A stretch of 27,208 nt of DNA from a virus. The stretch spans positions 1 to 27,208 of IMG/VR virus record IMGVR_UViG_3300050035_000714; one strand, written 5' to 3'. The position numbers and the translations under genes are program-made. Below the pieces are notes generated by a model. It saw only the letters and a list, made by a program, of their open reading frames with translations, searched no databases and was not told the DNA's origin. This document shows, one piece after another, positions 1,044 to 27,208 of the stretch. Positions within the stretch are counted from its first letter, which is position 1. Each line of letters begins with the position of its first letter.

Positions 1044-1291
1044 TTTGTTGTTTTTTGTGATGGGATTCTACTTTCGCAGTCTTTTTTTTCGCATTTCAGG
1101 GGAACTAAATCTGATACATCTTTTTTTAAATCGGCAATTTCTTTTTTCATGGTTTCGATAATATCGCCGTAAACTTCTTCTAAGGTTTTGAGTGCTTTTG
1201 TGTTGGCGTTTTTTGTTTGGATGGGTAGGGCTATTAATGCTGCTAAAAATCCTACGACTGCTGATATTAAATAGGGTTCTATCGGTGTCAT
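1040..1291 (-). CDS. Small one-TM coiled-coil protein of the lysis cassette
   Basis: An 83-aa protein with one hydrophobic segment near the N-terminus (about residues 6-24) and a charged helical tail (about 30-65) that looks coiled-coil. It then has a Cys- and Lys-rich end (CEKKDCES). It sits between the holin and the endolysin and overlaps the endolysin start by ATGA. Such a protein could be an antiholin, a second holin or an Rz-like i-spanin. The sequence does not decide among these. It starts 2 bp after the holin gene in the direction of transcription. I do not recognise a specific family. Confidence 0.5.
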   Translation of the reverse strand: MTPIEPYLISAVVGFLAALIALPIQTKNANTKALKTLEEVYGDIIETMKKEIADLKKDVSDLVPLKCEKKDCESRIPSQKTTK

Positions 1292-1292
1292 G

Positions 1293-1541
1293 CTACTGAT
1301 TGTTTTGTGGGGTGTTTTTTACTTGTAATTTGCTGATGGTGCCGCCGACTAAGCCGATGCCTGTAATGGTAAGAGATAACCACATTGGCATTACTTGTTG
1401 TAATTGTGGAGGTAAATAGGTGTAACTTGTTAATATGGCACCAAATAGGGCGGTAATGGTAGCTGATACGCTGCCTAAGATGACGTAAATTTTAGGGGTT
1501 TCGGCTGCCCAGCGGGCTTGTAATGTTTGTATGGGTTTCAT
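1293..1541 (-). CDS. Putative holin with two membrane segments
   Basis: An 82-aa protein with a short hydrophilic N-terminus containing RWAAETPK. Two hydrophobic segments follow (about residues 18-40 and 50-68), and a polar C-terminal tail ends in Q and N residues. Small proteins with this N-terminal W-AETPK pattern and two membrane spans are common holins of Bacteroidota phages. The function would be to form the inner-membrane lesion that releases the endolysin. It is followed directly by a coiled-coil membrane protein and the GH24 endolysin. Its C-terminal end resembles a short remnant at 4291-4383, suggesting a past duplication. Assignment rests on size, topology and position. Confidence 0.7.
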   Translation of the reverse strand: MKPIQTLQARWAAETPKIYVILGSVSATITALFGAILTSYTYLPPQLQQVMPMWLSLTITGIGLVGGTISKLQVKNTPQNNQ

Positions 1542-1546
1542 GGGGT

Positions 1547-1774
1547 TTAGTTTATTTGATAATTAATAATGGCTGCCTCTAATTCGTTTTGAGAAGAAAA
1601 GCCCCAGAACTCTAAATTGGATAATTTGGGCATTGAATTGATGGAAAATCCAAAAAACACCAATTTGGAAGATTGATATATTATGGTTGAAAAACCAAAA
1701 AATACTAATTTGGAAGATGGTGATATTACAGTTGAAAATCCTGTAAAGGATAATAATACACTATTTGTTCTCAT
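1547..1774 (-). CDS. Unrecognised 75-aa aromatic tandem-repeat protein
   Basis: I do not recognise this protein. It consists of about three and a half tandem repeats of 15-16 residues built around GFS and KLVFFGFS. The DNA shows the same periodicity, with repeat starts near 1596, 1644, 1689 and 1734 (48, 45 and 45 bp). The C-terminus (about residues 59-75) is not repetitive. There is no signal peptide. The start codon lies one base after the stop of the fibre gene at 1776, and the stop is 5 bp before the holin start, so it behaves as an operon member. The repeats read open on this strand but meet stops on the other. It could be a small fibre-associated or self-associating structural peptide. 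That is a guess from composition. Confidence 0.5.
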   Translation of the reverse strand: MRTNSVLLSFTGFSTVISPSSKLVFFGFSTIIYQSSKLVFFGFSINSMPKLSNLEFWGFSSQNELEAAIINYQIN

Positions 1775-1775
1775 A

Positions 1776-3584
1776 CTACACGTAATTTATATTGATTTCG
1801 GCTTGTAAATAAATAATATTTATTTGTTCTAATGTTACATAAGTCGTTAATTGACTTAATGCTAAGCTTTCGTAATCGACATTGGTAACCGCCCACGTGC
1901 CGTATTCGGTTAGGGATTTATTCAAGTTAGTAATGCCTAAACTTGCTAAATCGTTGAATAATACGGGTAGTCCTGCTTTAGTAGTACCTGGTAACCAATA
2001 CCACATCTGTGCTTGTCCATTTAATGCTACTGAAAAACGAGGTAAAGATACAGAGGGCGTAGTAAGGGTGTCATAAGGGATGACTTCAACGGATTCTTGA
2101 GGCAATTGAGTGGCACTATAAGATTGCATTTTGCCAAAGAAAAATCCGCTACCAATGCCTGATGCTAAACTACTTTGAACACCGAATAAAGATTTGCCAC
2201 GAACAAAAGCCAATACATTTGTTCTGACTCTGTTGCGGAATTGGGTAGAGGCTTGATTGGCACTTAAACGACCAAGAGAATCGAATTCAAGAATATCTGG
2301 TGGTGTAACATCATCATCAGAACCATCTGTATTTACATGTAAAATTGTACCCCAAGTCATGGGGATGGAATCGGCAACGCCACCAATGTTGGGTTTGTAA
2401 CAGCCCACATATTGATATTGAAGAGATGGATCGCCCATGGTCAAGGCACGGTTATTGGAATTTGATGAAAGGGTGTAATCTAATATCGAACCATCGGTAT
2501 TGTATCTGTTAAAAAGGGGCAATACAGTATCATCCATTACATAGTTGCTTTGACCTAAAATAGGATCGGTGTAAAAAGAATTGGCAATGATTAAGTTTAA
2601 ATAAGTTTGGGCAGTACCTGTTAATGTTGCAGCATAGGCAGTTAATCCATTTATTACATCTGTTAAGTAATTATTTGGACCACTAACATAAGTGATTGGA
2701 ATAGTTACACCATTCCATTGCCAAAGGGTGGCTTTGCGGAAAAGGCAATATCTAAAAATAGGGTAAATGGTATTTGCTAACCCTTTATATGGATATAAAT
2801 CAACAGAATTTACAAAAATAGAACTTGTTATATTGCAATATAGTGAGTTATTTGAACTATAGTAATTATTGAAATTTAATATGGTATTATTTCCTTGATA
2901 AGTACTACCTCCTATTTGACTATTCAAATTTGTGATAAATGAATCTCTAAGAGTATATAACCCTTCAAATGTGGTTAAATTGGTCACATTACTACTATAC
3001 AAAGACGGTGGGTAGCTACTAGTAAGACTATTACATTTCAAATTATAAAAAACTGGAGCACCATCATCAGTTGATATATTTCCATTTAACACTGCATCTT
3101 CTCCCTCGAAAATATGGGTTCTAGTTCCTATTAATGGAGGATTTTCAATCATCATACCCCTATATACACAATAAGGAAGTGTTGCAATCGTATTCCCTTT
3201 TGTCATCGTTGCAAAAGGTTCATTCCTTGTACCTACATTATTATCGTTACCTACAATAGGACAAACAAAAATAGTATTGGCTGTTTGCAAGGTGGTTACA
3301 TTGACGGTCAAACCAACTCCCGTACCTGTTACGGGGGTAGTGGCTAATGCGTTGGCAGGAGCATAGCCAGTTCCTGTTCTGAGAATAGAGAAGGTAAGGA
3401 CTGCCCCCGAAGATACTGTTAATACTTTTCCAACAGCATTTTCAACACCTCCTGTGATAGAAAATAAATCATTGATAGCATAGCCTGAACCTCCAACGCC
3501 TAAAGTGGTGGTTTTAATTTCAGTACCATCATAGAACGGCGTGATACCGTCGATAGGATTGATGCGTGTTTTAAATAGTCCCAT
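1776..3584 (-). CDS. Tail fibre/spike-like protein with a beta-helix signature
   Basis: A 602-aa protein in the fibre cluster. Residues 24-100 are Gly/Thr-rich with GGSGYA and GTGYAPA motifs. Around residues 105-130 it shows GNDNNVGTRNEPFATM, the usual entry motif of right-handed parallel beta-helix proteins. A stretch rich in Asn, Ser and Tyr follows, compatible with beta-helix coils. The C-terminal third (about 390-602) is not low-complexity and carries a distinct domain. Its start overlaps the preceding small gene by 14 bp and its stop abuts the 75-aa repeat gene. A receptor-binding or depolymerase role is possible. No catalytic residues can be assigned from sequence alone. Confidence 0.6.
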   Translation of the reverse strand: MGLFKTRINPIDGITPFYDGTEIKTTTLGVGGSGYAINDLFSITGGVENAVGKVLTVSSGAVLTFSILRTGTGYAPANALATTPVTGTGVGLTVNVTTLQTANTIFVCPIVGNDNNVGTRNEPFATMTKGNTIATLPYCVYRGMMIENPPLIGTRTHIFEGEDAVLNGNISTDDGAPVFYNLKCNSLTSSYPPSLYSSNVTNLTTFEGLYTLRDSFITNLNSQIGGSTYQGNNTILNFNNYYSSNNSLYCNITSSIFVNSVDLYPYKGLANTIYPIFRYCLFRKATLWQWNGVTIPITYVSGPNNYLTDVINGLTAYAATLTGTAQTYLNLIIANSFYTDPILGQSNYVMDDTVLPLFNRYNTDGSILDYTLSSNSNNRALTMGDPSLQYQYVGCYKPNIGGVADSIPMTWGTILHVNTDGSDDDVTPPDILEFDSLGRLSANQASTQFRNRVRTNVLAFVRGKSLFGVQSSLASGIGSGFFFGKMQSYSATQLPQESVEVIPYDTLTTPSVSLPRFSVALNGQAQMWYWLPGTTKAGLPVLFNDLASLGITNLNKSLTEYGTWAVTNVDYESLALSQLTTYVTLEQINIIYLQAEININYV

Positions 3585-3819
3585 TGATGATGAAGGTATT
3601 AAAGTTATAATTCTGGTTTTGGATAAAATATGTGGCTGTTACTGACAGTTGTGGAAAAGACCAAGTTAATGGTCTGCCATAAGCATCTCGCTCGGAACAG
3701 GTATTAACAAAATCAATGTTGGGTAATATATTTTCATTGAACCAAGTTTGAAAAGTTTCGTTTTGAGAGGAAAGGGCTATGCCTGCTTCAAAATTTATTG
3801 TATCGTTTATTTTTATCAT
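3571..3819 (-). CDS. Small hypothetical protein of the fibre cluster
   Basis: An 82-aa soluble protein with no visible signal peptide or membrane segment. It has aromatic- and Asn-rich stretches (WFNEN, NQNYNFNTF). It is translated just before the beta-helix fibre, overlapping it by 14 bp, and begins 13 bp after the short fibre paralogue. The tight packing supports a real gene. It may be a fibre chaperone or cap, but I do not recognise the family. Confidence 0.55.
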   Translation of the reverse strand: MIKINDTINFEAGIALSSQNETFQTWFNENILPNIDFVNTCSERDAYGRPLTWSFPQLSVTATYFIQNQNYNFNTFIINGTI

Positions 3820-3832
3820 GGTTTTGCGAAGA

Positions 3833-4294
3833 TTATGATTGTGTAAATATTATGATTGCATTCGCATTTGTTTGTCCTGCAACGACGGTTATATCGTTGA
3901 TAGTTAATTGCGTACCTGAAGAGAGAGCGACACCCACTAAAGTGGTATGATTGTAGGTGGTTGTGCCAATGGTAACGGAAATATCGGCACAATTGGACAT
4001 TAATTGTACACTCGAAACAGTGAGATTACTTATCCACTTAAATAATTGCGGTGAAACAATACCGTTTGAAGTTGATTTGAAAAGAGATAGGTTTAAGGGT
4101 GCGGAAATGCCATCTGCACCCGTTTCGCTGCTCTGAAATTTCGATAACCAAACGCCATCTGCCACTTGCACGTATTCTAAACTGGTGGTAGTGTCTAACC
4201 ATCCTTTGCCAATGGGAATGCCTGAAGCTGTTAGTCCATCGGTTGTGGTGGGTGGTCTATTTTGTAATATGGAACTTTGAATTATTTCTGTCAT
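3833..4294 (-). CDS. Short tail fibre paralogue with shared virion-attachment domain
   Basis: A 153-aa protein whose first about 48 residues are nearly identical to the N-terminus of the 1127-aa fibre at 5547-8930. Both contain ILQNRPPTTTDGLTASG and GKGWLDTTT. At DNA level the match is about 110 bp (roughly 4185-4294 against 8820-8930). In tail fibres the N-terminus is normally the part that docks to the virion. This gene therefore looks like a second docking module with a short C-terminal domain (about 50-153), rich in Ser, Thr and Val, in place of the long repeat shaft. Its start codon overlaps the stop of the holin-like remnant (ATGA). It could be an alternative fibre, an accessory, or the product of a partial duplication. 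Confidence 0.6.
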   Translation of the reverse strand: MTEIIQSSILQNRPPTTTDGLTASGIPIGKGWLDTTTSLEYVQVADGVWLSKFQSSETGADGISAPLNLSLFKSTSNGIVSPQLFKWISNLTVSSVQLMSNCADISVTIGTTTYNHTTLVGVALSSGTQLTINDITVVAGQTNANAIIIFTQS

Positions 4295-4383
4295 GGTCTA
4301 TTTGGCGTTTTTATTTGTGATTTACTCATTATTCCGCCCAGTAAGTCGATGCTATCTGGTGCTTGTTTCAAGAAAGGAAGTAT
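4291..4383 (-). pseudogene. Possible remnant of a holin C-terminus
   Basis: A stretch open from 4383 to the TGA at 4293-4291 encodes about 30 residues, including DLLGGIMSKSQIKTPNRP. This parallels LVGGTISKLQVKNTPQNNQ at the end of the holin at 1293-1541. The DNA is also visibly similar (4296-4360 against about 1309-1370). An in-frame TAA lies just upstream (4386-4384) and there is no ATG upstream of the conserved part, so it is unlikely to make a protein. Its stop overlaps the start of the short fibre by ATGA, the coupling expected of a once-functional gene. The match is short and could be fortuitous. Confidence 0.35.
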
Positions 4384-4411
4384 TTACAATTAGTTGTAAA
4401 ATACTTCCTTT
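4373..4411. terminator. Long hairpin between fibre genes
   Basis: The arm AAAGGAAGTATTTACAA (4373-4389) and the arm TTGTAAAATACTTCCTTT (4394-4411) pair with one bulge around a TTAG loop. This is a stem of about 17 bp. In the minus direction it follows the LamG-domain gene by 32 bp, but the sequence after it is only TTTCTTG, so the U-tract is weak. It may attenuate transcription into the downstream fibre and lysis genes, or it may protect the mRNA. Confidence 0.5.
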
Positions 4412-4443
4412 GTACCTATTCAATATTTGCGTATTTGTTTTAT

Positions 4444-5547
4444 TTAAAGTAATTTATTTGTTTGTAGCTCTGAATATATATTTTTAATTTGCATTGCTAC
4501 TTTAGCGATACTATAAAGACTATAATAATCTATTTTTCCAATAAATGAACCACCGACACTATATGTTGTTGTAGTTCCCATAGCAGTTGTGCAAGATACC
4601 TGACTATTGAACACGCCGTTTACATATAATTTAACGTTGGTAGAATCGTATGTAAATGATAGCAAACAATAAGTGCTAATTGGTAGAACATAACTAAAGG
4701 TATTAACAGTAGTTCCAATCGTCAATTGGATATTGGTCGAGTTCAACACAATATTAAACTTTCCAGTATCTATTATCTTTTCGCCATCAACTAATCTATC
4801 TCGATTAATCATAAAATTAACCGTAAATTGATTTGTTATCTGAGATGCTATAATAGTAGCAGTGCCTGCTACATATCCATAATTAGGGTCTGGAGCAGTA
4901 GTCCCAATGGTTAGTACAATGGTATGTTTATTATTTGCAGCACCATTTCCACCGACTTCGTTTGGCAAATCGTTTTGGTCATTGCAAAAGGCAACGATTG
5001 TATAAACTCCGTTAGCAGTTGGTGTCCATGTGGCAGCGGTTGTTCCTCCATTTGCAGTAAGATTTATCTTCCCTCCAGCAGGTAATGAGTTATAGTCTGT
5101 GTCACTCCAGACATTAGTAAGAAATGCCGTGATAGGGTTTCCTTGAGAGATACTCCAAACCACTCCATGTTTTATTCCAGAAGGGGTGGCGGTATCTCCT
5201 ATATTTTTCAATGTCACCGAAAATGTTACTGGTTGTCCTATTTGCGGATAGACGGGTGACCATTTTATGCTATACACGGTTAAGTCATAACCGCCTGTGG
5301 TTGTATTGCCAGGTTCTGAGTCATCTGGTATTGTCGGGATAGTTCCATTTAAGTGTATAGCTCGATATGGTTTAGTAAATCTATCTGCCACAAATGTATA
5401 TTGCCCATTGTTCGTCACCGTCTCTCTATTATTACCATTATCTACCAATGTGTTGGTATTTGCTTGATAAGATTGGTTTTTAAATCTTAATTCTGTAATT
5501 AAAGATTTACTATCAGCTACTTTATTTGATAAATAGTTTGCTATCAT
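4444..5547 (-). CDS. Fibre-associated protein with CARDB-like and LamG-like domains
   Basis: A 367-aa protein. Residues 1-85 are an Asn/Thr-rich head. About residues 87-215 look like a CARDB/APHP-type Ig-like adhesion domain: DLTVYSIKWSP, then PVTFSVTLKNIGDT, then GVYTIVAFCN. About residues 225-355 look like a concanavalin A/LamG lectin fold, with YVNG and the terminal GKIDYYSLYS followed by a short helix, as in LamG_3. Its start overlaps the stop of the large fibre (TAATG), so expression is coupled. A glycan-binding or adhesin tip on the large fibre is the likely role. Domain names are from motif recognition and unverified. Confidence 0.65.
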   Translation of the reverse strand: MIANYLSNKVADSKSLITELRFKNQSYQANTNTLVDNGNNRETVTNNGQYTFVADRFTKPYRAIHLNGTIPTIPDDSEPGNTTTGGYDLTVYSIKWSPVYPQIGQPVTFSVTLKNIGDTATPSGIKHGVVWSISQGNPITAFLTNVWSDTDYNSLPAGGKINLTANGGTTAATWTPTANGVYTIVAFCNDQNDLPNEVGGNGAANNKHTIVLTIGTTAPDPNYGYVAGTATIIASQITNQFTVNFMINRDRLVDGEKIIDTGKFNIVLNSTNIQLTIGTTVNTFSYVLPISTYCLLSFTYDSTNVKLYVNGVFNSQVSCTTAMGTTTTYSVGGSFIGKIDYYSLYSIAKVAMQIKNIYSELQTNKLL

Positions 5548-8500
5548 TATGATACGGTTACTATTAATTTATTATTTGTCGGTAGTATGTGAACAAATTT
5601 GTTATAGGCAGATGCAGCAGGAACAATAAAAGTATCTCCAGTTCTATCTATTATTGTCTTTCCTGAAAATGTTGTAGGTAAATTTACCGTACAATCATAC
5701 GCATTTGCATTTGTTAGAATAACAAGTATCTCTCTACCAGCAGTAAATGAACTTGCTGAATAGGTTAAATTTAAACTAAATGCAGCCGATGCATTATCAG
5801 TTGGATTAATTGTAACATCATACACATCCACATTTCCTGCAACGGCTATTGGCGAAGCTATTGATGCTATTGTTGCTGGGTCTGATTCAACTTTAATGGG
5901 TTGTGCTCCTATGCTGGTGGTGGTTACGGCAGCTATTGCAGCGGCTTGTGCTGTTGAAACGGGTTTGTTAGCATCGGAAGTATTGTTTACATTGCCAAGA
6001 CTTAAATCTGTTGCGGTTACGGTTACATTTGCCGATAGGGCGTGTCCGTTTACGGTAGTGGTATTGGGTACAAAGTTATTTGTAATCCATGCCCACGCTG
6101 TGCCTGTCCAACTAAGAATGCCTGTTGATTTTGTGATGGTTGGTTCAGCTCCTACTTGTGATGCTGTTGTAGGAATAGTAGGCTTATTAAGTATTTGTGC
6201 AAGTCCTGTAGAGGCGTTCCAATCTGAATTAACTTGTGCTGCTGGAATGGTAGGCTGTCCCGTTAAATCTGAATAGGCTACGGTTACATTAGCTGATAGG
6301 GCGTGACCGTTGATTGTTCTCGAAGTTGGAACTGCTCCTAAAGTAGTGGTGGTTACGGCGGCTATCGCAGCGGCTTGTGCTGTTGAAACGGGTTTGTTAG
6401 CATCGGAAGTGTTGTTTACATTGCCAAGACTTAAATCTGTTGCGGTTACGGTTACATTTGCCGATAGGGCGTGTCCGTTTACGGTAGTGGTATTGGGTAC
6501 AAAGTTATTTGTAATCCATGCCCATGCTGTGCCAGTCCAACTCAACAATCCTGTTGATTTTGTAATGGTTGGTTCTGCTCCTAAAGTAGTTGTGGTTACG
6601 GCAGCTATTGCAGCGGCTTGTGCTGTTGAAACGGGTTTAGCTGTATCAGCTGTATTGTTTACGTTACCTAGTCCTAAATCTGTTGCGGTTACGGTTACAT
6701 TTGCCGATAGGGCGTGACCGTTTACGGTAGTGGTATTGGGTACAAAGTTATTTGTAATCCATGCCCATGCTGTGCCAGTCCAACTCAACAATCCTGTTGA
6801 TTTTGTAATGGTTGGTTCTGCTCCTATGCTGGTGGTAGTTACGGCAGCTATTGCAGCAGCTTGTGCTGTTGAAACGGGTTTAGCTGTATCAGCTGTATTG
6901 TTTACATTGCCAAGTCCTAAATCGGTGGCAGAGACTGTTACGTTTCCATTAAGTTGATGCCCATTTACGGTGAAGTAGGTCGGTACTGCTCCTGTATCGG
7001 CTGCAGATATATATATATTTGCGTTAAGTGCATGACCATTAACGGTAGTGGTAGTGGGAACTGCTCCTACATCACTTGCAGACAATGTTATAGCTCCTTG
7101 TTTTCCGCAAACACTTGTAACGTCGTCAGAATTCAAGGATAATTGGACTACGCCAATATTGTTGTAGATAGCCCAGTCGCCAAGATTGAAAGATAGTCCG
7201 AATTGTGTGCCTGCAACGCCTACGGTATAGACGTTTCCTACTTTTGTTAGATCGGGGCTTACTAAGCCTAAATCGTTGGTGGAGGCATTCCAAACGCCTA
7301 TGTATTTTAATAAAGTGCCTGGCAAAAGTGATAATGGTATTTTTCCGCTGGTGTCTAAGCTTATTTTAGTAGATTCTAATTCGTTGATAGCACCTCTCAA
7401 ATCTTGTGAAGTGGTAGTTAATCCATTTACATAAAATAGGTGGTTAGCTCCAAAATATGTGTTAGGGACACCACCATTCAGCTCTGTTCTAAAGGCATAG
7501 TTATTTTTATCCGTATTAGCTGAAACATCTGGATTTAAAATTCTCAAATCAGGCTGCCAATAATTATCTGAATTAAATAGATACCTGTATAATTCTGGGA
7601 TTTGGAAAAAATCTGGATTATTAAACTGCAAAAAACTAGAGTTAGCTCCTGTAGATTCAGTATATTGAGTAGTAAAATTCATGGTAGGAGTTTGAAAAAT
7701 CTGTCCTGTTCCACTTAAATAAAGTTGAGATACCTTTGAAAATTCCTCGGTTGTTTGTGCTCGTAAATAAACATTTCCAGGTGTGTAATAAAAAGTATTC
7801 TGCCCTTGAGAGTTTACCAATATGAAATCTCCAAGAATTCGCTTTCCATCGCCAGGACGGTCAGAAATCATTTCTGTTCCGTTACCGTCGTTAAGGATAA
7901 AATAGTTAGGTCCTGTTTGCATAATAGGGGTATTTCCCATATTTATTTGCAGAAATGGAACGTGTGAGGGTGTACTATCTACTCCAGCGGCTAAGAATGT
8001 TGTTCCGTTGGCGTGTATGGTGGTTGTGGTAGGGAGGGCGTCTAATATAAGTTCGCCGCCTACATTTAATTGTAATTCGCCACTATTGGCAAAAATATTT
8101 TGTGTTCCTCCTGCTCCAGCTGAGAAGTAAAAAGGAGTGTCTGTACCGTCGCCTCCTGCGTCTAAAACATTGTGTCCATTTGCTTTAACGGTGGTATAGT
8201 TATTGCCTGCTTGTACAATAACTACGCCTCCAGCTGAAAGGTTCGTCCAAGTTGCACCGCCATTTAGCAGTACTTGACCGCCTCCTAAATAGGCTGAATA
8301 AGCAGGGTCGATGTGTAATCCTGCTATGTTATTTCGGGCAATATCAAAAGCCCCGTTTCCGTTGATAGCTGCATTATCGGGTGTTAATACGACTGTTTGG
8401 GTTGTGGGGTCGTAGGTAAAGAAATCTAATAATGATGCGGTATTGAAGGTAGCGATGGTGAAATTGTCGGTAGCTGTATTGTAATTGAATACAAATATTT

Positions 8501-8930
8501 GATTGGGTAGTATATTTGCAATGGTTTGTGTGCCTACTGAATTGGTTAATATGACTTGACAAGGAATGGTGACCCAAACTTTTTGAATGGCTGTTGAGGT
8601 ATCTGTAACAACATCTGCATTAAAATAAGCCATTCCGCTTGTGGTTACTCGATTGTCTGTTACTAACCACGATTGAACGGTATTGGGACAAACAAAAGAG
8701 ACGGTAGCTGTTGTGTCATCTACAATAAGGGGCAAAACGCCAGCATCGGGGGTGGGTAGTGGAAGAGTTGTAGAGTTTTGTTGCCAAATGCCATCACGAA
8801 TTTGAATATATTCTATATTGGTGGTCGTGTCTAACCATCCTTTGCCAATGGGAATGCCAGAAGCTGTGAGACCATCGGTGGTGGTGGGTGGTCTGTTTTG
8901 TAATATGGAACTTTGAACTATTTCTGTCAT
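5547..8930 (-). CDS. Large tail fibre with 81-residue shaft repeats
   Basis: A 1127-aa tail fibre. The N-terminus (1-50) is the docking domain shared with the 153-aa paralogue at 3833. A beta-rich region follows to about residue 500. GAINEL (about 515) marks a fibre hinge seen in many phages. From about 600 the shaft carries TVNGHAL, NVTVTATDL, GLGNVNNTADTAKPVSTAQ and WTGTAWAWITNN units, repeating with an 81-aa (243-bp) period, plus a variant insert around residues 880-935. The last about 90 residues (VESDPATIAS onward) form a distinct C-terminal domain. It would be displayed at the baseplate for host recognition. Repeats make length variation by recombination likely. No chaperone domain is visible; the coupled downstream gene may serve as tip or adaptor. 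Confidence 0.85.
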   Translation of the reverse strand: MTEIVQSSILQNRPPTTTDGLTASGIPIGKGWLDTTTNIEYIQIRDGIWQQNSTTLPLPTPDAGVLPLIVDDTTATVSFVCPNTVQSWLVTDNRVTTSGMAYFNADVVTDTSTAIQKVWVTIPCQVILTNSVGTQTIANILPNQIFVFNYNTATDNFTIATFNTASLLDFFTYDPTTQTVVLTPDNAAINGNGAFDIARNNIAGLHIDPAYSAYLGGGQVLLNGGATWTNLSAGGVVIVQAGNNYTTVKANGHNVLDAGGDGTDTPFYFSAGAGGTQNIFANSGELQLNVGGELILDALPTTTTIHANGTTFLAAGVDSTPSHVPFLQINMGNTPIMQTGPNYFILNDGNGTEMISDRPGDGKRILGDFILVNSQGQNTFYYTPGNVYLRAQTTEEFSKVSQLYLSGTGQIFQTPTMNFTTQYTESTGANSSFLQFNNPDFFQIPELYRYLFNSDNYWQPDLRILNPDVSANTDKNNYAFRTELNGGVPNTYFGANHLFYVNGLTTTSQDLRGAINELESTKISLDTSGKIPLSLLPGTLLKYIGVWNASTNDLGLVSPDLTKVGNVYTVGVAGTQFGLSFNLGDWAIYNNIGVVQLSLNSDDVTSVCGKQGAITLSASDVGAVPTTTTVNGHALNANIYISAADTGAVPTYFTVNGHQLNGNVTVSATDLGLGNVNNTADTAKPVSTAQAAAIAAVTTTSIGAEPTITKSTGLLSWTGTAWAWITNNFVPNTTTVNGHALSANVTVTATDLGLGNVNNTADTAKPVSTAQAAAIAAVTTTTLGAEPTITKSTGLLSWTGTAWAWITNNFVPNTTTVNGHALSANVTVTATDLSLGNVNNTSDANKPVSTAQAAAIAAVTTTTLGAVPTSRTINGHALSANVTVAYSDLTGQPTIPAAQVNSDWNASTGLAQILNKPTIPTTASQVGAEPTITKSTGILSWTGTAWAWITNNFVPNTTTVNGHALSANVTVTATDLSLGNVNNTSDANKPVSTAQAAAIAAVTTTSIGAQPIKVESDPATIASIASPIAVAGNVDVYDVTINPTDNASAAFSLNLTYSASSFTAGREILVILTNANAYDCTVNLPTTFSGKTIIDRTGDTFIVPAASAYNKFVHILPTNNKLIVTVS
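5900..6960. repeat. 243-bp tandem repeats inside the fibre gene
   Basis: The landmark GTTACGGC recurs at about 6352, 6595 and 6838, an exact 243-bp spacing. A further copy lies near 5934, separated by an insert of about 175 bp. Long stretches between copies are identical, for example around GAAACGGGTTT and GGGTACAAAGTTATTTGTAA. The repeats keep the reading frame (81 codons) and encode the fibre shaft. Open frames on the plus strand here are shadows of this coding repeat. Confidence 0.9.
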
Positions 8931-8931
8931 G

Positions 8932-9183
8932 TTATTTAGTTGTTACGGGTACTTTTGTAAAAGTTATAGTTGTTTTTCCGTCAAATACAGCGGTTGATTT
9001 TTTTTGCAAAAAGGCGTCTAAATCTGTTCTGTTGATGGTTAAAACGAGAAAGGCGTTGTTTGCTTGATAGAATCCTACAGAGCCTTTTGAATCGGCAAAA
9101 TTTGTAATATTGTTGTTTGCATCGACTGAAAATGTTACGCTAACGGTTGCGGACGGTGTTAGAAGTGTTGGAGTTGTTGCCAT
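8932..9183 (-). CDS. Small hypothetical protein between the two large fibres
   Basis: An 83-aa soluble beta-rich protein (TVSVTFSVDANNNITNF, then TTITFTKVPVTTK). It lies 7 bp after the 1295-aa fibre and ends 1 bp before the 1127-aa fibre. There is no signal peptide, membrane segment or Cys. Position suggests a fibre connector or small capping protein. I do not recognise the family. Confidence 0.55.
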   Translation of the reverse strand: MATTPTLLTPSATVSVTFSVDANNNITNFADSKGSVGFYQANNAFLVLTINRTDLDAFLQKKSTAVFDGKTTITFTKVPVTTK

Positions 9184-9190
9184 TGTATTT

Positions 9191-12100
9191 TTAATTTAAG
9201 GGTGTGAAAATTGTATTGTTATCTAAGTCTAAATATTTAAGAAATGCTTTGTTATTGCTATTTAAGAATATTTCTTTTGGGGTATTATATGGTAATACTA
9301 ATTCTGTATCAGAAGGTATTGTAATTCCATTCCAAGATCCGAATGGGGAAATAACTTTTAAAGATCCATTTCCATTTAAAGTCAAAGAATAAGTTTCATA
9401 TTCCAAATCCCCACCATTTTGATTTTGTATGTTTAGTTCATATCCACCACATTTAACTCTATAATTTTGACACAGGATATAAGTAGATTCACCTGCATTT
9501 TTTTCAAGAGTTAAATTATAACATTGGTAGATATAATTTGAATAAACTTCATTTTCGCAATCAATTGAATTTGAGTTATAAATAATATTTTCATTACACA
9601 CTCCTTGATTAATAAACATACTATTGACAACTAAACAACAATAGGCATATCCTAATAATTTACAATCTCTTGCGTTATTGAAAATAAATTCATTTGAATT
9701 TGAACCTACTTCTATTTGCTGGCAATTAATGATTATGAAATTCTCGTTATTTTGAGAAAGAGTTATGTTGATACTTTGAGATATTGTACATTGAGCAATA
9801 AAACAATCTGAAATATTACAAGAATTGTAAATCCAAACTCCCCAAGCAACACTTGCTTTAATATTGTTTGAATTTTGTACAGCTAATTGCGGTAACTGAT
9901 TAGGTTGGTAGGATGTGAATGTATTATTATAGTTAGCTGTGTTATTAAACACACCATTATTATCACAAAAAGTGGGTAAATCTACTGGAGCACCTGCCAA
10001 AGCAGGAATAGTTATATTATAATTTGCTGCGTATAAAGACAACCCACTTGTGGATGAACAATAAAGGGTAGTAGAGATATTTGAAAGAGCTAAGACCCAA
10101 TATTGACTACCTGCCGTTGGATTAACGCCGACGATGTTTGAATCGGCATAAGCACATAGATAAACAGCATCATAAATTGGTGAGTATAACCAAGTACCTA
10201 CTGCATAATAGGTACTGCCTGTTGCATCATATTGAGCCAAAGTGGATGGGTCGCAATAATATCTACGTGTAGTTATGTTTCTGAAATCGAAATCGGCTTG
10301 ATTGTTTTGTGCGTCTTTTCTAAAATAGATTTGACCCATTGAAGTAGGGGTGTTCCATTGATAAGAACGTCCATCAATGTTGTAAAGAATTTCGTCGGAT
10401 GGATTATTAAGAGAAATAACTCTTGCATCAAATTGATTTGCAGAAATGGCCGTTATTAATAATGGTTCAGTTGCTCCAGCTAATGGACGGGTAGAATCGT
10501 TATCTTGGTAATAAATGGTTTCGAAATCGGTAATGAGATAGTTAGTTCCAATTGATAATTGAGCGCTTTGATAAAGGTTAAACAAATTGGCATACGTAGT
10601 AGAAACAATGGATGTGCCGCCACCGCCTTCGGCAGCTTTTAATTCGTTGATGGCTCCTTTTACGTCGGAAGCAACGGTGTTTAGTCCGAATAGATTGATG
10701 TTTCGGGTAGTCCAAATGCCACCACTTGAGAATGATATACCACCTATGTTGTCATCTACATAAGCATCTGATGAGTTTGCATTGAATGTGAGAGATGAAC
10801 ATGATTTGCCAACAACGATGTCCCAAAGTTGAACGTTAAAAGCAATATTATTTGAACCTGTATCTATTTTTATGTTGTTACTTCCACCAGGAAAGGTAAT
10901 GGTGTTCACGTCTGTTTTTGTTTCTATATCATAAGCGTTGTCATATATGGTAATGGTATGGTTGTTGTCACCAATATTGGCACGAGAAACGTTAATGCCT
11001 AATGTTATGTTTGTAGATGAAAATCCTATTGTGTTTTCGTAGGAGTTGTCGCCAATTGTAATGCCAGTATTATAACTTTCAATAGTGGAACGAGAAACGT
11101 TAACTCCTAATGTTATGCCTGTAGATTCAAATTTTACTTCGTTTTCGAAAGAGCCTACGCCTATATCGATGGTGCTGCAATTGGGATGTATGGTGTTATT
11201 GTATGAATTGGCTCTTAATACTATTTGTTGACAATCGTGTGCGATTGTGTTGTTGTTACTATTGTCGCAAATGATGTTTCCAATGCTGTTTTCGCCTGTT
11301 GTTAGATTATTTACGGTAGTTCCCAAATATAAATTAGCATTTCCTCCTTCTGAGCTAGAACCTGCTAAATTTAAAACGCTACAATTATTTCCAATGATAA
11401 GATTTGTGATTTGAATGCCTCTATTTATTTTTACGCCATTGACGTTATCTCCAATCACTGCATTTGTAAACGAGGTAGCCTCAAAATGATAGGCTGTGCC
11501 CATAAAATTTAGACTGTCGGAAAAGCCTTTGATATTAATATCTGATGCTGAAGAATTAAAAATGTATCCACGTCCTCCTTGGTCTCCTGGCTTAACTTGT
11601 TCAATATAAATGTTGAATGTATTCTCGGAATAATATTGAAACATTAACTTATCGGAATTAGGGATTACGGGTCCAGTGGGAATGGTAAACTGTCCCATAT
11701 TCCAACCACCTGCTGTTGCACCTACCAACGCACCATTTTGAAAAGGTAATAGTAGAAAATCGTTTGCTAATACGGCATTAGATGTATTGTTGATACACAA
11801 ATAAAGATTGTTATAATAAGCCACAACTGCATATTTAGCATAAGTACCTCCAGCGGTGTATGTGTTTGTTACATTTACGGGATAGCGACGAAATTGTACT
11901 GCCCTGAAATCGCACGCAATGTCGTTGTTTCTGGCTTTATCTACTCGTCTGAAAATTCCGCTACCGACAGAATAGTGCAACTCGTCATCGGGGTAAATAA
12001 GTGATGTTGCTAATTCGTCTATTGTGTTTGAAGAAGTGGCGGTTACGATAATAGGTTCTGTTGGTCCACTTATCGATGCACGTGTTACGCCATCACTTTC

Positions 12101-13078
12101 AAAATAATCGCTATCGCCAAGTTGTTGGCATTGGTATTTTGTTTGATAATCGGTAATGAGGTATTGTGTACCTGCTACTAGTGATCCAGCATAATATGAA
12201 TTTGTAAAAGTTGTATGATCAATAGAAACAGATGGATTTTCGTTGCCGCCGCTTCCTAAGTTGGAGATGTCTATGAATGAGCTGGTGGTGTTGCCATCAT
12301 ATAGGGATAACCAAACGCCTGCTTGTGTGCCATTTTTGACTCTAACGGTGTTGAGTTGTGTTGCATCGCAAACAGGAGCGGCATAACAAAGGTATTTTCC
12401 TTCAGTTAAAATAGGCATAAGAACCCTGTAAACGCCATTATATTGTGGATTATTTTGATTTTTAATAAGTATCAATTGACCCGACGAAATGGGTATTCCA
12501 TCCATCGAATTGTTAGGGGTAGAAAATTTAATTTGAATGACTGTTCCATGAGGCTTATAATAATTAAGGTCTTCTGTCAAAGTACCAGTTGTGGCAACAT
12601 CAACTTGAATGTCTTTGTAATTTATCGGAATAGTGGGTACTAAATTAAAGTACCATGCTCCATCAGCAAATACACAGTCTATTGTATCGCCTACATTGTA
12701 GGTGGTAGTGGTAGGAGGGGTGGTAGCATTGTTTGTAAATGGGATGGATGAACTTCCTTTTATGGTAATGGTGGTGAGAATATTTGTCGATGACGATAAA
12801 GTAGGGAATAGTAATGCTCCATTTGTAGCACCGTTTGTGGCATAAATATAGGGGGTTGAATCGGTACCGATGGTATATGTTGGCACTGCTGGTGTGAGAT
12901 TGACCAAGGATAAATTGTTTGGATTGATAGGGGAACTAATGCCCCAATCTTCTGCAATCCAATCTGATAGATTTTCATACGAAACTTGATTCCATGCTGA
13001 ACCACCGTCTGGCTGAGCGGCTAATATTAGGTTCTTGTCTTTATTTGCTAGGGGGGTTGTGCTTAATATTACGCTCAT
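9191..13078 (-). CDS. Giant tail fibre/spike with duplicated module and beta-helix
   Basis: A 1295-aa structural protein following the baseplate genes; its start overlaps the LysM-like gene stop (ATGA). After an N-terminal region (1-280) a module starts near residue 285. It carries YLITDYQT, EPIIVTA, DDELHYSV and DFRAVQFRRYP. It recurs near residue 825 as YLITDFET, EPLLITA, DEILYNI and DFRNITTRRYY. Each copy leads into an Asn-, Ile- and Ser-rich beta-helix-like region (about 480-790 and 1010-1260). The second of these is Cys-rich. A GAINEL hinge sits between (about 810). It is probably a fibre or spike at the tail tip. Unlike the 1127-aa fibre it lacks the shared docking domain, so it may attach differently. 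Confidence 0.75.
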   Translation of the reverse strand: MSVILSTTPLANKDKNLILAAQPDGGSAWNQVSYENLSDWIAEDWGISSPINPNNLSLVNLTPAVPTYTIGTDSTPYIYATNGATNGALLFPTLSSSTNILTTITIKGSSSIPFTNNATTPPTTTTYNVGDTIDCVFADGAWYFNLVPTIPINYKDIQVDVATTGTLTEDLNYYKPHGTVIQIKFSTPNNSMDGIPISSGQLILIKNQNNPQYNGVYRVLMPILTEGKYLCYAAPVCDATQLNTVRVKNGTQAGVWLSLYDGNTTSSFIDISNLGSGGNENPSVSIDHTTFTNSYYAGSLVAGTQYLITDYQTKYQCQQLGDSDYFESDGVTRASISGPTEPIIVTATSSNTIDELATSLIYPDDELHYSVGSGIFRRVDKARNNDIACDFRAVQFRRYPVNVTNTYTAGGTYAKYAVVAYYNNLYLCINNTSNAVLANDFLLLPFQNGALVGATAGGWNMGQFTIPTGPVIPNSDKLMFQYYSENTFNIYIEQVKPGDQGGRGYIFNSSASDINIKGFSDSLNFMGTAYHFEATSFTNAVIGDNVNGVKINRGIQITNLIIGNNCSVLNLAGSSSEGGNANLYLGTTVNNLTTGENSIGNIICDNSNNNTIAHDCQQIVLRANSYNNTIHPNCSTIDIGVGSFENEVKFESTGITLGVNVSRSTIESYNTGITIGDNSYENTIGFSSTNITLGINVSRANIGDNNHTITIYDNAYDIETKTDVNTITFPGGSNNIKIDTGSNNIAFNVQLWDIVVGKSCSSLTFNANSSDAYVDDNIGGISFSSGGIWTTRNINLFGLNTVASDVKGAINELKAAEGGGGTSIVSTTYANLFNLYQSAQLSIGTNYLITDFETIYYQDNDSTRPLAGATEPLLITAISANQFDARVISLNNPSDEILYNIDGRSYQWNTPTSMGQIYFRKDAQNNQADFDFRNITTRRYYCDPSTLAQYDATGSTYYAVGTWLYSPIYDAVYLCAYADSNIVGVNPTAGSQYWVLALSNISTTLYCSSTSGLSLYAANYNITIPALAGAPVDLPTFCDNNGVFNNTANYNNTFTSYQPNQLPQLAVQNSNNIKASVAWGVWIYNSCNISDCFIAQCTISQSINITLSQNNENFIIINCQQIEVGSNSNEFIFNNARDCKLLGYAYCCLVVNSMFINQGVCNENIIYNSNSIDCENEVYSNYIYQCYNLTLEKNAGESTYILCQNYRVKCGGYELNIQNQNGGDLEYETYSLTLNGNGSLKVISPFGSWNGITIPSDTELVLPYNTPKEIFLNSNNKAFLKYLDLDNNTIFTPLN

Positions 13079-23087: not shown

Positions 23088-24308
23088 CTACTGTTTTATT
23101 AGTTTGGTTTCAAAACTTCCGATTTTGAGGATGTAAATGCCTGTTTGTAGGAAACTGGCGGGTAATGTTCCGTTATCAACTTGTTGGGAAAAAATCAACT
23201 TGCCATTTAAATCAAATAGTTGTAATGTTTGGGGTGTGGTTAGACCGCTGATGTTGAAATTATCTACTATAGGATTTGGAAAAATAGAAACGTTATCTTG
23301 TATTTGTTGTACGGCTGTTCCGATTATTCCAACAATATGTGTAAAATCTTGCCATTGATTGGCTGCTTTGTATAGATTTGCTGAATTTAGAGGGACATAT
23401 AGGGTACAGGTGGTTGTGTTTACAGCGTAGAAAACTTGAGCAGAGGAAGTTAAATCTACAGGAGTAGTTGCATATGAATATATGGAGGATAAAGAAGTAC
23501 AACCATCAAAAGCATCACCTCCAATGGAAGTAACCGATGAGGGAATGGTGATTGAGGTTAAATGAGTACAATACGTAAAAGCAATAGCTCCAATAGAAGT
23601 GAGAGATGAAGAAAGGGTAATGGAGGATAAACCAGTACAACCCTGAAAAGCAGCATCTCCAATAGAAGTAACTGATGACGGAATGTTTATTGAGGTTAAA
23701 GCAGTACACCACTCAAAAGCATACGTTCCAATAGAAGTAACGGATGAGGGAATGGTAATGGATGTTAAACCAGTACAATTCTCAAAAGCATTCTGTCCAA
23801 TAGAAGTAACCGATGAAGGGATGGTAATGGAGGTTAAACCACATTCTATAAAAGCACCCTCTCCAATTGAAGTAACAGATGACGGAATAGTAATGGAGGT
23901 TAAACCAGAACACAATCCAAAAGCACCGTCTCCAATAGAAGTAAGGGATGAGGGAAGGGTAACTGAAGTTAAGTTAGTACGACCATCAAAAGCTGCGGAA
24001 GGAAGATCATTGGCTGCATAGACATAATTATTATCTGAACCTTGTGTTCCTTGTGTACCTGTGTAGGCTGCAATTGTAACGGCACTTAAATTTATTGCTG
24101 CTAATTTGGGCATACTGTCACGCATGATTTTAAAGTCTCGTGCATCGATAGTGCCTGTAATGGTGAGGTTGGTAATTGTACTGAGATTTCCGCCTACGGT
24201 AGTGATGGCGGTAGATAGACCGCCTGCGGTACTGGCAACTGTTAGGGCTTGTGCTGTGGTTATTGCCATCAGGCACAAACTAAAGATGAGTAAAATTGTT
24301 TTTTTCAT
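23088..24308 (-). CDS. Secreted BspA-like leucine-rich-repeat protein with T9SS sorting domain
   Basis: A 406-aa exported protein. Residues 1-21 are a signal peptide (MKKTILLIFSLCL... to TAQA). Residues 60-90 contain RDSMPKLAAINLSAV, as in BspA relatives. Eight tandem 22-23-residue LRR_5 repeats follow (about 104-285; core LTSITIPSSVTSIG), one unit lacking a residue. Then comes the usual CTLYVP and YKAANQWQDF cap. About 339-406 is a Por-type C-terminal sorting domain (SIFPNP, LFDLNGK, GIYILKI), which targets the protein to the cell surface through type IX secretion. BspA-like proteins bind host tissue or other bacteria. It lies between phage gene blocks and has its own terminator. It may be a host gene or a phage-carried lysogenic conversion gene. 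Confidence 0.9.
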   Translation of the reverse strand: MKKTILLIFSLCLMAITTAQALTVASTAGGLSTAITTVGGNLSTITNLTITGTIDARDFKIMRDSMPKLAAINLSAVTIAAYTGTQGTQGSDNNYVYAANDLPSAAFDGRTNLTSVTLPSSLTSIGDGAFGLCSGLTSITIPSSVTSIGEGAFIECGLTSITIPSSVTSIGQNAFENCTGLTSITIPSSVTSIGTYAFEWCTALTSINIPSSVTSIGDAAFQGCTGLSSITLSSSLTSIGAIAFTYCTHLTSITIPSSVTSIGGDAFDGCTSLSSIYSYATTPVDLTSSAQVFYAVNTTTCTLYVPLNSANLYKAANQWQDFTHIVGIIGTAVQQIQDNVSIFPNPIVDNFNISGLTTPQTLQLFDLNGKLIFSQQVDNGTLPASFLQTGIYILKIGSFETKLIKQ

Positions 24309-26869: not shown

Positions 26870-27208
26870 ATGAAAAAAATAATTTTACTTATCTTTAGTT
26901 TGTGCGTAATAACTATGTCGCAAGCAACATCTGTTTGGTGTAATGGAGGAGGTCAGTTATCAAATGTATTACAACAAGCTGGTATAAAGTGTAAAAACAT
27001 TACCTCTTTAATTTTTACGACATCTACGAGTCCATTCAATGGAATGTTGGAGTATTCCGTACTAAGTGCTACTGACTTTTACTTAATCCGTGATAGTATG
27101 CCAAAGCTCACTTACTTAGATTTGACTAATGTGCAAGCAGGAGCGTTACCTTATGCAATACCTGCGGATGCTTTTCAAGGTTGTACAAGTTTAGTTCAAA
27201 TAATTTTA
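26870..27208 (+). CDS. BspA-like secreted protein, N-terminal part only
   Basis: 113 codons run off the window. Residues 1-19 are a signal peptide (MKKIILLIFSLCVITMSQA), almost the same as that of the 23088-24308 gene. About residues 75-90 contain LIRDSMPKLTYLDLTNV, matching that protein's MRDSMPKLAAINLSAV. The end shows AFQGCTSL, the start of an LRR_5 unit. It is thus a paralogue, likely with LRR repeats and perhaps a sorting domain beyond the window. It is on the opposite strand to the phage genes and is preceded by a TACATTTG promoter element. Confidence 0.85.
   Translation, partial: MKKIILLIFSLCVITMSQATSVWCNGGGQLSNVLQQAGIKCKNITSLIFTTSTSPFNGMLEYSVLSATDFYLIRDSMPKLTYLDLTNVQAGALPYAIPADAFQGCTSLVQIIL

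Follow-up and report, generated by a model that had tools for sequence, protein, structure and literature searches.

A holin remnant between two fibre-type genes that share an N-terminal domain in a metagenomic phage record

Excerpts of three reports describe the closest known systems. In the Ackermannviridae, several receptor-binding genes (tsp1–tsp4) carry conserved N-terminal structural domains and are proposed to have arisen by duplication from a single gene; in an experiment, tsp4 recombined with an added tsp5 that has a common N-terminal domain, or tsp3 was deleted and tsp4 truncated (PMC11414711). Klebsiella phages such as KP32 and K11 each have two receptor-binding proteins, and combine an N-terminal anchor with exchangeable C-terminal parts (PMC8262889). 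In Enterococcus phage EfV12-phi1, in-frame tandem duplications with a unit of 1.8 kb were seen experimentally in a tail fibre gene (PMC6365445). Here we describe the IMG/VR virus record IMGVR_UViG_3300050035_000714, classed as linear and analysed over a stretch of 27,208 bases (the window), in which two fibre-type genes encoding proteins of 1127 and 153 residues begin with the same domain and the end of a holin gene lies between them. To our knowledge, the addition of a fibre by a phage, as opposed to the exchange of one, usually has to be inferred because the event has left no trace. In the window, the gene order and the lysis-gene remnant record the joint, and an identity at the start codons suggests how it formed. 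On balance we lean to the view that this phage gained a two-fibre host-recognition module by addition of a second fibre-to-holin cassette, through an ectopic joint probably made between two related phages, after which the first holin decayed.

The late genes lie on the minus strand in the order baseplate, fibres, lysis. The fibre and lysis end reads: the 1127-residue fibre gene, a 367-residue gene, the holin end, the second, 153-residue fibre gene (3833–4294, minus strand), genes for proteins of 82, 602 and 75 residues, and an intact holin-like gene (Table 1). The last is labelled a holin because it matches PHROG 1356 and the lysozyme gene is next but one; its match to Pfam DUF7940 (expectation value, E, 4.9e-4) falls under the family cut-off. 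Neighbours in the fibre cluster (1293–13078) overlap or sit at most 13 bp apart, with the single exception of a 149-bp gap between the 367- and 153-residue genes.

The holin end is found in the downstream part of this gap. The minus-strand frame of 4291–4383 translates to ILPFLKQAPDSIDLLGGIMSKSQIKTPNRP-stop, and its TGA overlaps the ATG of the 153-residue gene. There are several lines of evidence for its kinship with the 3′ end of the holin. First, the peptide aligns to the holin with a BLOSUM62 score of 41, which 1 of 5000 peptide shuffles reaches (fraction 0.0002), and of the 762 stop-ended peptides of the window only the holin itself scores higher (the next peptide scores 36). Second, the DNA is identical to the holin 3′ end at 35 of 45 nucleotides, ungapped and in frame, with a score of 25; no mononucleotide shuffle (0 of 2000, maximum 19), no dinucleotide shuffle (0 of 5000, maximum 17) and no random 93-nt piece from other loci (0 of 6000, maximum 18) reaches it, and the second-best of 426 window tiles scores 14. 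Third, a gapped alignment (gaps of 3, 6, 1 and 1 nt) extends the match as far as the CATGACA that marks the beginning of the 153-residue gene, so that the holin end leads directly into the fibre start. The likeness noticed in a preliminary description of this DNA, which allowed that it might vanish on proper alignment, has thus persisted above all the DNA controls. BLAST with 7-base words does not detect it, because the match contains no exact run of 7. The frame runs for only about 30 codons, is immediately preceded by a stop, and lacks both a start codon ahead of the conserved part and a complete membrane-spanning frame; it is a remnant of a holin and not a holin gene. The gap also holds a strong hairpin, a possible terminator, with its 3′ arm reaching into the opening codons of the relic frame; 3 of 200 shuffles equal the predicted fold of 4285–4450, and the hairpin is absent from the list given by a terminator scan.

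The two fibre-type proteins are alike at their N-termini only. Of their first 50 residues 42 are identical (BLASTP: 85.7% over 49 amino acids), where the preliminary description had about 48 nearly identical residues, and the DNA matches at 88% over 148 nt (4148–4295 against 8784–8931). The direct repeat of about 110 bp reported there corresponds to codons 1–37, in which 7 of 111 bases differ, six of them synonymously and one with an amino acid change (synonymous divergence, dS, 0.26; nonsynonymous divergence, dN, 0.012). Codons 38–50 hold 13 nucleotide differences and 7 amino acid changes, and the amino acid differs in all 8 of codons 51–58, so the likeness ends near residue 50. Some aligners extend it to residue 75, 88 or 150 with dropping identity. 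Beyond residue 54 the two proteins are no better matched than shuffles: the score of this part of the 153-residue protein is matched by 993 of 1000 shuffles against residues 55–160 of the longer protein, and by 194 of 1000 against all of its remainder after residue 54.

Third-position differences are not significantly different in frequency in codons 1–37 (6 of 37) and codons 38–50 (4 of 13; p 0.42), whereas differences at positions 1 and 2 number 1 and 7 (p 0.0001). Recent gene conversion was considered as the cause of the near-identity of codons 1–37 and set aside on this pattern. The copies appear instead to reflect constraint on the first 37 residues together with a moderately old split. 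The longest exact run that they have in common is 32 nt (4191/8827) and the second 22 nt. We take the shared domain to be a putative anchor that may attach both proteins to the virion. A search for homologues of known function gave none, and in the model of the 153-residue protein most of residues 1–65 are predicted with a local confidence (predicted local distance difference test, pLDDT) below 50.

The remainder of the 153-residue protein is a module found on other phages. A scan with the whole protein matches its C-terminal part in 8 IMG/VR loci at 40–66% identity; four are distinct (L122; L123 and L124; L125 to L128; L129). There the module sits C-terminally on fibre-type proteins with other N-termini and other bodies: repeats in L122, a collagen-like body in L123, a 1335-residue protein with a Fib_succ_major domain in L125, and Fib_succ_major domains in L129. 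In all 8 loci homologues of the 82- and 602-residue proteins come directly after the module-bearing gene, the latter with best E per locus of 8e-29 to 2e-107. In L123 the 602-type gene is followed by a 68-residue open reading frame (ORF), a homologue (E 3e-13) of an 83-residue window gene and a holin-like ORF; the 68-residue ORF, which stands behind a 561-residue gene, resembles the 75-residue cassette gene in appearance. With the module on other N-termini and these partner genes beside it, the 153-residue protein looks like a shaftless fibre, a putative anchor joined straight to a C-terminal module, that heads a mobile fibre-tip cassette. The module and its two partner genes may thus serve as a handle for fibre tips in metagenomic phages. 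Of the two fibres with a duplicated domain that had been described, the repeated domain stands, and the second full fibre becomes this anchor and module.

The 153-, 82- and 602-residue proteins have no Pfam match, and the two marginal PHROG matches among them are to the 82-residue (E 0.03) and 602-residue (E 0.051) proteins. No member of the module, 602-type or 75-type profiles was found in 81 other loci, and the 82-type profile gave one weak match there, a 161-residue ORF of L066 (E 1.4e-4). This is a partial test, since only 24 of the 81 contain the last baseplate gene, 15 of them reaching at least 2 kb and 9 at least 4 kb beyond it. The 153-residue query found no module in phage records, the module profile at E 1e-4 matched 0 of 393 and 1 of 396 genomes (the single match partial, model positions 18–77), and the module has no sequence match among solved structures. 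Folded alone, the 153-residue protein reaches a mean pLDDT of 48, and with five relatives 59.7; means per ten residues are 52–63 over residues 61–90 and 70–87 over residues 91–153. The module is thus modelled as all-beta with moderate confidence over residues 91–153 and without a distinctive match. Foldseek of the model finds nothing in the PDB at E 0.001 or below (the top rows are mostly cupin-type) and one viral model (E 7.9e-4, template modelling score 0.33). VIA-align gives Z scores up to 6.8, with unrelated proteins tied, among them the tail fibre of Agrobacterium phage 7-7-1 (Z 6.5, root-mean-square deviation 3.1, 83 aligned). No function is drawn from the fold matches.

Adjacent genes with a common short N-terminal motif occur in L125 (score 64, shuffle maximum 40, 0 of 2000) and, less clearly, in L129 (44 against 39, 0 of 2000); the window phage may therefore not be alone in having one anchor type on more than one fibre. 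The same loci hold the 82-type and 602-type genes in two or three adjacent copies (L125 6381–12138, L129 6276–10287), suggesting repeated multiplication of the tip cassette.

The position of the remnant bears on its origin. Three relatives of the window sheath gene also have a lysozyme match (G002, G037 and G015). In all three the lysozyme is separated from the last baseplate gene by a single large ORF, which we take as a fibre because of its position and size; profiles picked out a holin in G002 alone (PHROG 1129, E 0.012), in a scan that left out G015. With fibre-like ORFs placed before the lysozyme in these relatives, a holin end would not be expected between two groups of fibre genes and is best read as the mark of a joint. 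CATGACA occurs three times on the two strands of the window, once at each fibre start and once immediately behind the intact holin, and is suggestive as a candidate breakpoint. Finally, the interiors of the two fibre-to-holin units are dissimilar, at chance level in both protein and DNA; the best DNA score between the masked units, 33, exceeded all of 60 shuffles at first and was reached by 23 of 700 in a larger test.

We propose that an ancestor carried a fibre F (the anchor with a long repetitive shaft), the 367-residue lectin-like gene, a holin H and other lysis genes, and that a related phage carried a fibre F′ (the same anchor fused directly to the mobile C-terminal module), the 82-, 602- and 75-residue genes, a holin H′ and lysis genes. 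An ectopic joint at a microhomology, probably CATGACA, would have placed the start of F′ directly behind the end of H and given the order F-367-H|F′-82-602-75-H′. As one holin is enough, H would have been redundant and decayed to its last 20–30 codons, and F′ and its tip genes would have been retained. The virion may then have one kind of docking site occupied by two types of fibre: a long one (the 1127- and 367-residue proteins) and a short adaptor (the 153-residue protein) that would hold a tip of its own, formed by the 82- and 602-residue proteins; this docking and tip model draws on gene order and the conservation of the module. A single recombination between related phages with unlike fibre bodies and alike anchors and holins would account at once for the repeat and the relic, for the order of the genes and for the lack of similarity between the interiors. 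The anchor dS of 0.26 and the 10 differences in 45 nt between relic and holin are of the same order, which allows a single event.

Several observations weigh against this reading. The relic comparison covers 45 nt only, and its proportion of synonymous differences (pS, 4 of 10) exceeds that of the anchor (6 of 27), both tiny numbers. Attachment to the virion, which the proposal includes, is putative. ATGACA starts 4 of the 27 window genes, so the sharing of CATGACA could be chance at an estimated few per cent. The holin-like protein of L123 resembles the window holin weakly (2 of 2000 shuffles reach the score) and its ORF is positioned after the 83-type gene, not before; in L129 the 75-type gene is followed by a 426-residue ORF with no holin-like ORF seen between, so the cassette does not always end in a holin. 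No donor or intermediate was found with the anchor in viral contigs, species genomes or named phages. In viral contigs, a two-row alignment of the anchor confirmed no relative among at least 80 pattern stretches, and none of 30 stretches with the pattern GGNAARGGNTGGYTNGAYAC was taken as a homologue (the best had a profile E of 0.005 over 14 residues in L071, and L085 has the short motif GKGWLDTT); none of 22 stretches in species genomes was confirmed, and phage records gave one match at E 7.

Scans of 393 and 396 genomes (two orders) gave 3 and 2 partial anchor matches at E 0.0046–0.0097 per genome, judged to be chance, and the ORFs of the loci then in hand held none; the same N-terminal domain, which it had been suggested to seek on other fibre tips, thus has no relative in the searches made. 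Among 39 records that include the window, fibre and holin were found in the window alone, the fibre in none of 9 host genomes, and the 1127-residue query had no match in viral contigs. Against named phages it matched 92 records; the 20 listed cover 9–22% of the query, all from residue 495 onward. Direct searches found no relatives of the holin, 602-residue or 367-residue proteins; 602-type genes were later found beside the module, so empty searches of this kind are weak evidence.

It is possible, with clearly lower probability than the recombination set out above, that the fibre-to-holin segment was duplicated in tandem within one genome and a foreign cassette then replaced the interior of one copy. 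A single parent suffices for this, and it yields the identical order F...H|F′...H and the same joint. However, interiors should still align at a synonymous divergence of about 0.26, whereas there is no protein similarity after residue 54 and the masked DNA score is reached by 23 of 700 shuffles, and a second large replacement is required. The dissimilar interiors thus fit recombination between two phages better than simple duplication. The earlier suggestion that past events had duplicated the end of this region is supported in part, in that there are signs of an event that placed a second fibre-to-holin segment downstream of a first.

We think it unlikely that fibre-domain shuffling alone was at work, with homologous recombination at the conserved fibre 5′ end fusing the anchor to the module, and the holin end being flanking DNA of a phage with its holin before the fibre. 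In its favour, the excerpted Ackermannviridae report documents that receptor-binding genes with a common N-terminal domain are exchanged (PMC11414711). The three relatives nonetheless place the large fibre-like ORF before the lysis genes, and the gene listings of the module loci show no holin-like gene directly before the module-bearing fibre gene, no profile search having been aimed at holins there.

Retention of the relic for a function is considerably less probable still. It could form a short leader frame that acts jointly with the hairpin to control how strongly the second cassette is expressed; its TGA overlaps the ATG of the fibre gene, the hairpin is just upstream, and its proportion of nonsynonymous differences from the holin (pN, 7 of 35) is below pS, in numbers too small to tell. 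Against this, a stop stands directly before the frame, its only ATG is internal to the conserved part, and the hairpin is unlisted as a terminator; such a use would in any case be compatible with an origin of the relic by recombination. A joining of two phage populations at the repeat during metagenome assembly is very improbable, for although the record is metagenomic and a repeat is present at the joint, no exact run longer than 32 nt is common to the two copies, and a chimaeric join alone would not leave only the last holin codons.

A broader form of the recombination proposal can be offered only as a doubtful conjecture: that joints of the last lysis or holin codons with a fibre start codon recur, so that phages of this group gain fibres, cassettes stack head to tail on a common anchor, each upstream holin decays, and the holin remnants left among fibre genes are scars of fibre gain that could be tallied from phage to phage.

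Table 1. Features of the window discussed in the text
Feature	Position	Strand	Evidence or remark
CATGACA at start of gene after holin	1286–1292	-	7-bp identity with fibre starts 4289–4295 and 8925–8931
Intact holin-like gene, 82 aa	1293–1541	-	PHROG 1356 holin, E 9e-4; lysozyme gene next but one
75-aa cassette gene	1547–1774	-	homologues in L125–L129, E 9e-9 to 6e-4
602-aa cassette gene, probable receptor-binding tip	1776–3584	-	homologues after 82-type gene, 8/8 loci
82-aa cassette gene	3571–3819	-	homologues directly behind module-bearing gene, 8/8 loci
C-terminal module, residues 57–150 of 153-aa protein	3845–4126	-	8 IMG/VR loci (4 distinct); modelled all-beta
N-terminal domain, residues 1–50 of 153-aa protein; putative anchor, copy 2	4145–4294	-	DNA repeat and protein alignment to copy 1
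Holin 3′-end relic	4291–4383	-	ungapped match 4308–4352; gapped match 4289–4352
Strong hairpin in wide gap; possible terminator	4373–4411	-	inverted repeat; stem in predicted fold of 4285–4450
367-aa protein with Laminin_G_3 (lectin-like) domain	4444–5547	-	PF13385, E 3.5e-7, 30.9 bits (cut-off 27.6)
1127-aa long tail-fibre gene	5547–8930	-	PHROG tail fibre and minor tail families, mainly via repetitive part
Tandem repeats of about 243 bp in shaft of 1127-aa gene	5904–7069	-	exact runs of 113 and 109 nt
N-terminal domain, residues 1–50 of 1127-aa long fibre; putative anchor, copy 1	8781–8930	-	42/50 residues as in copy 2

The 367-residue protein probably serves the first fibre as an accessory protein or as its tip. 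A crossover between the direct anchor repeats would give a deletion or duplication of about 4.6 kb; the inversion that had also been envisaged does not arise, as direct repeats delete, duplicate or swap. The longest exact direct repeats of the region are those of the shaft and not the anchor repeat, and with exact runs of 113 and 109 nt against 32 nt, variation in shaft length is likelier than loss of a fibre, and nowhere else in the region is a change of length as likely as in the shaft.

The window has a contractile-tail backbone, as it contains a sheath gene (PF10758, DUF2586); several Flavobacterium phage records label related genes as tail sheath. It also has a head protease (PF00574, PF10123), a phage lysozyme (PF00959) and a major capsid gene, the last assigned because it is 27–28% similar to Bacteroides phage records. 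Nothing turned up in an Rfam scan. Loci related to the sheath number 38 in viral contigs and 24 in species genomes, the latter under record titles that name Bacteroidota (Acetofilamentum checked). Away from the fibres, 23088–24308 (minus strand) encodes a leucine-rich-repeat protein of the BspA type (LRR_5, E 8e-69) that ends in a sorting tail for type IX secretion (Por_Secre_tail, E 1.7e-9) and looks like phage-borne cargo for the host surface. Its gene separates two late genes that lie 243–376 bp apart in L014, L017, L025 and L039 and about 1.6 kb apart in L045. A second, related N-terminus (48% over 52 aligned columns) lies at 26870–27208 on the plus strand, cut by the window end.

A limited keyword search of the literature, in the parts of the sources available, turned up no description of fibre genes with the remnant of a holin between them. 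As far as the excerpts of the reports cited at the outset go, the locus is like the Ackermannviridae tailspike modules in its multiple receptor-binding genes with conserved N-terminal domains, and unlike them in a domain of only about 50 residues, a protein without a shaft and a lysis-gene remnant at the joint, no sequence relation being shown (PMC11414711). With the Klebsiella phages it has in common an anchor module with exchangeable C-terminal parts and two receptor-binding proteins; KP32 mounts its second protein on the first, whereas in the window phage the same N-terminal domain is on both (PMC8262889). The 243-bp shaft repeats of the 1127-residue gene recall the duplications of EfV12-phi1, which concern a shaft, unlike the anchor and holin scar of the window (PMC6365445). 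Modular exchange of fibres is thus already known; the scar and the cassette of the window are new examples of it, in which the record of origin is unusually readable.

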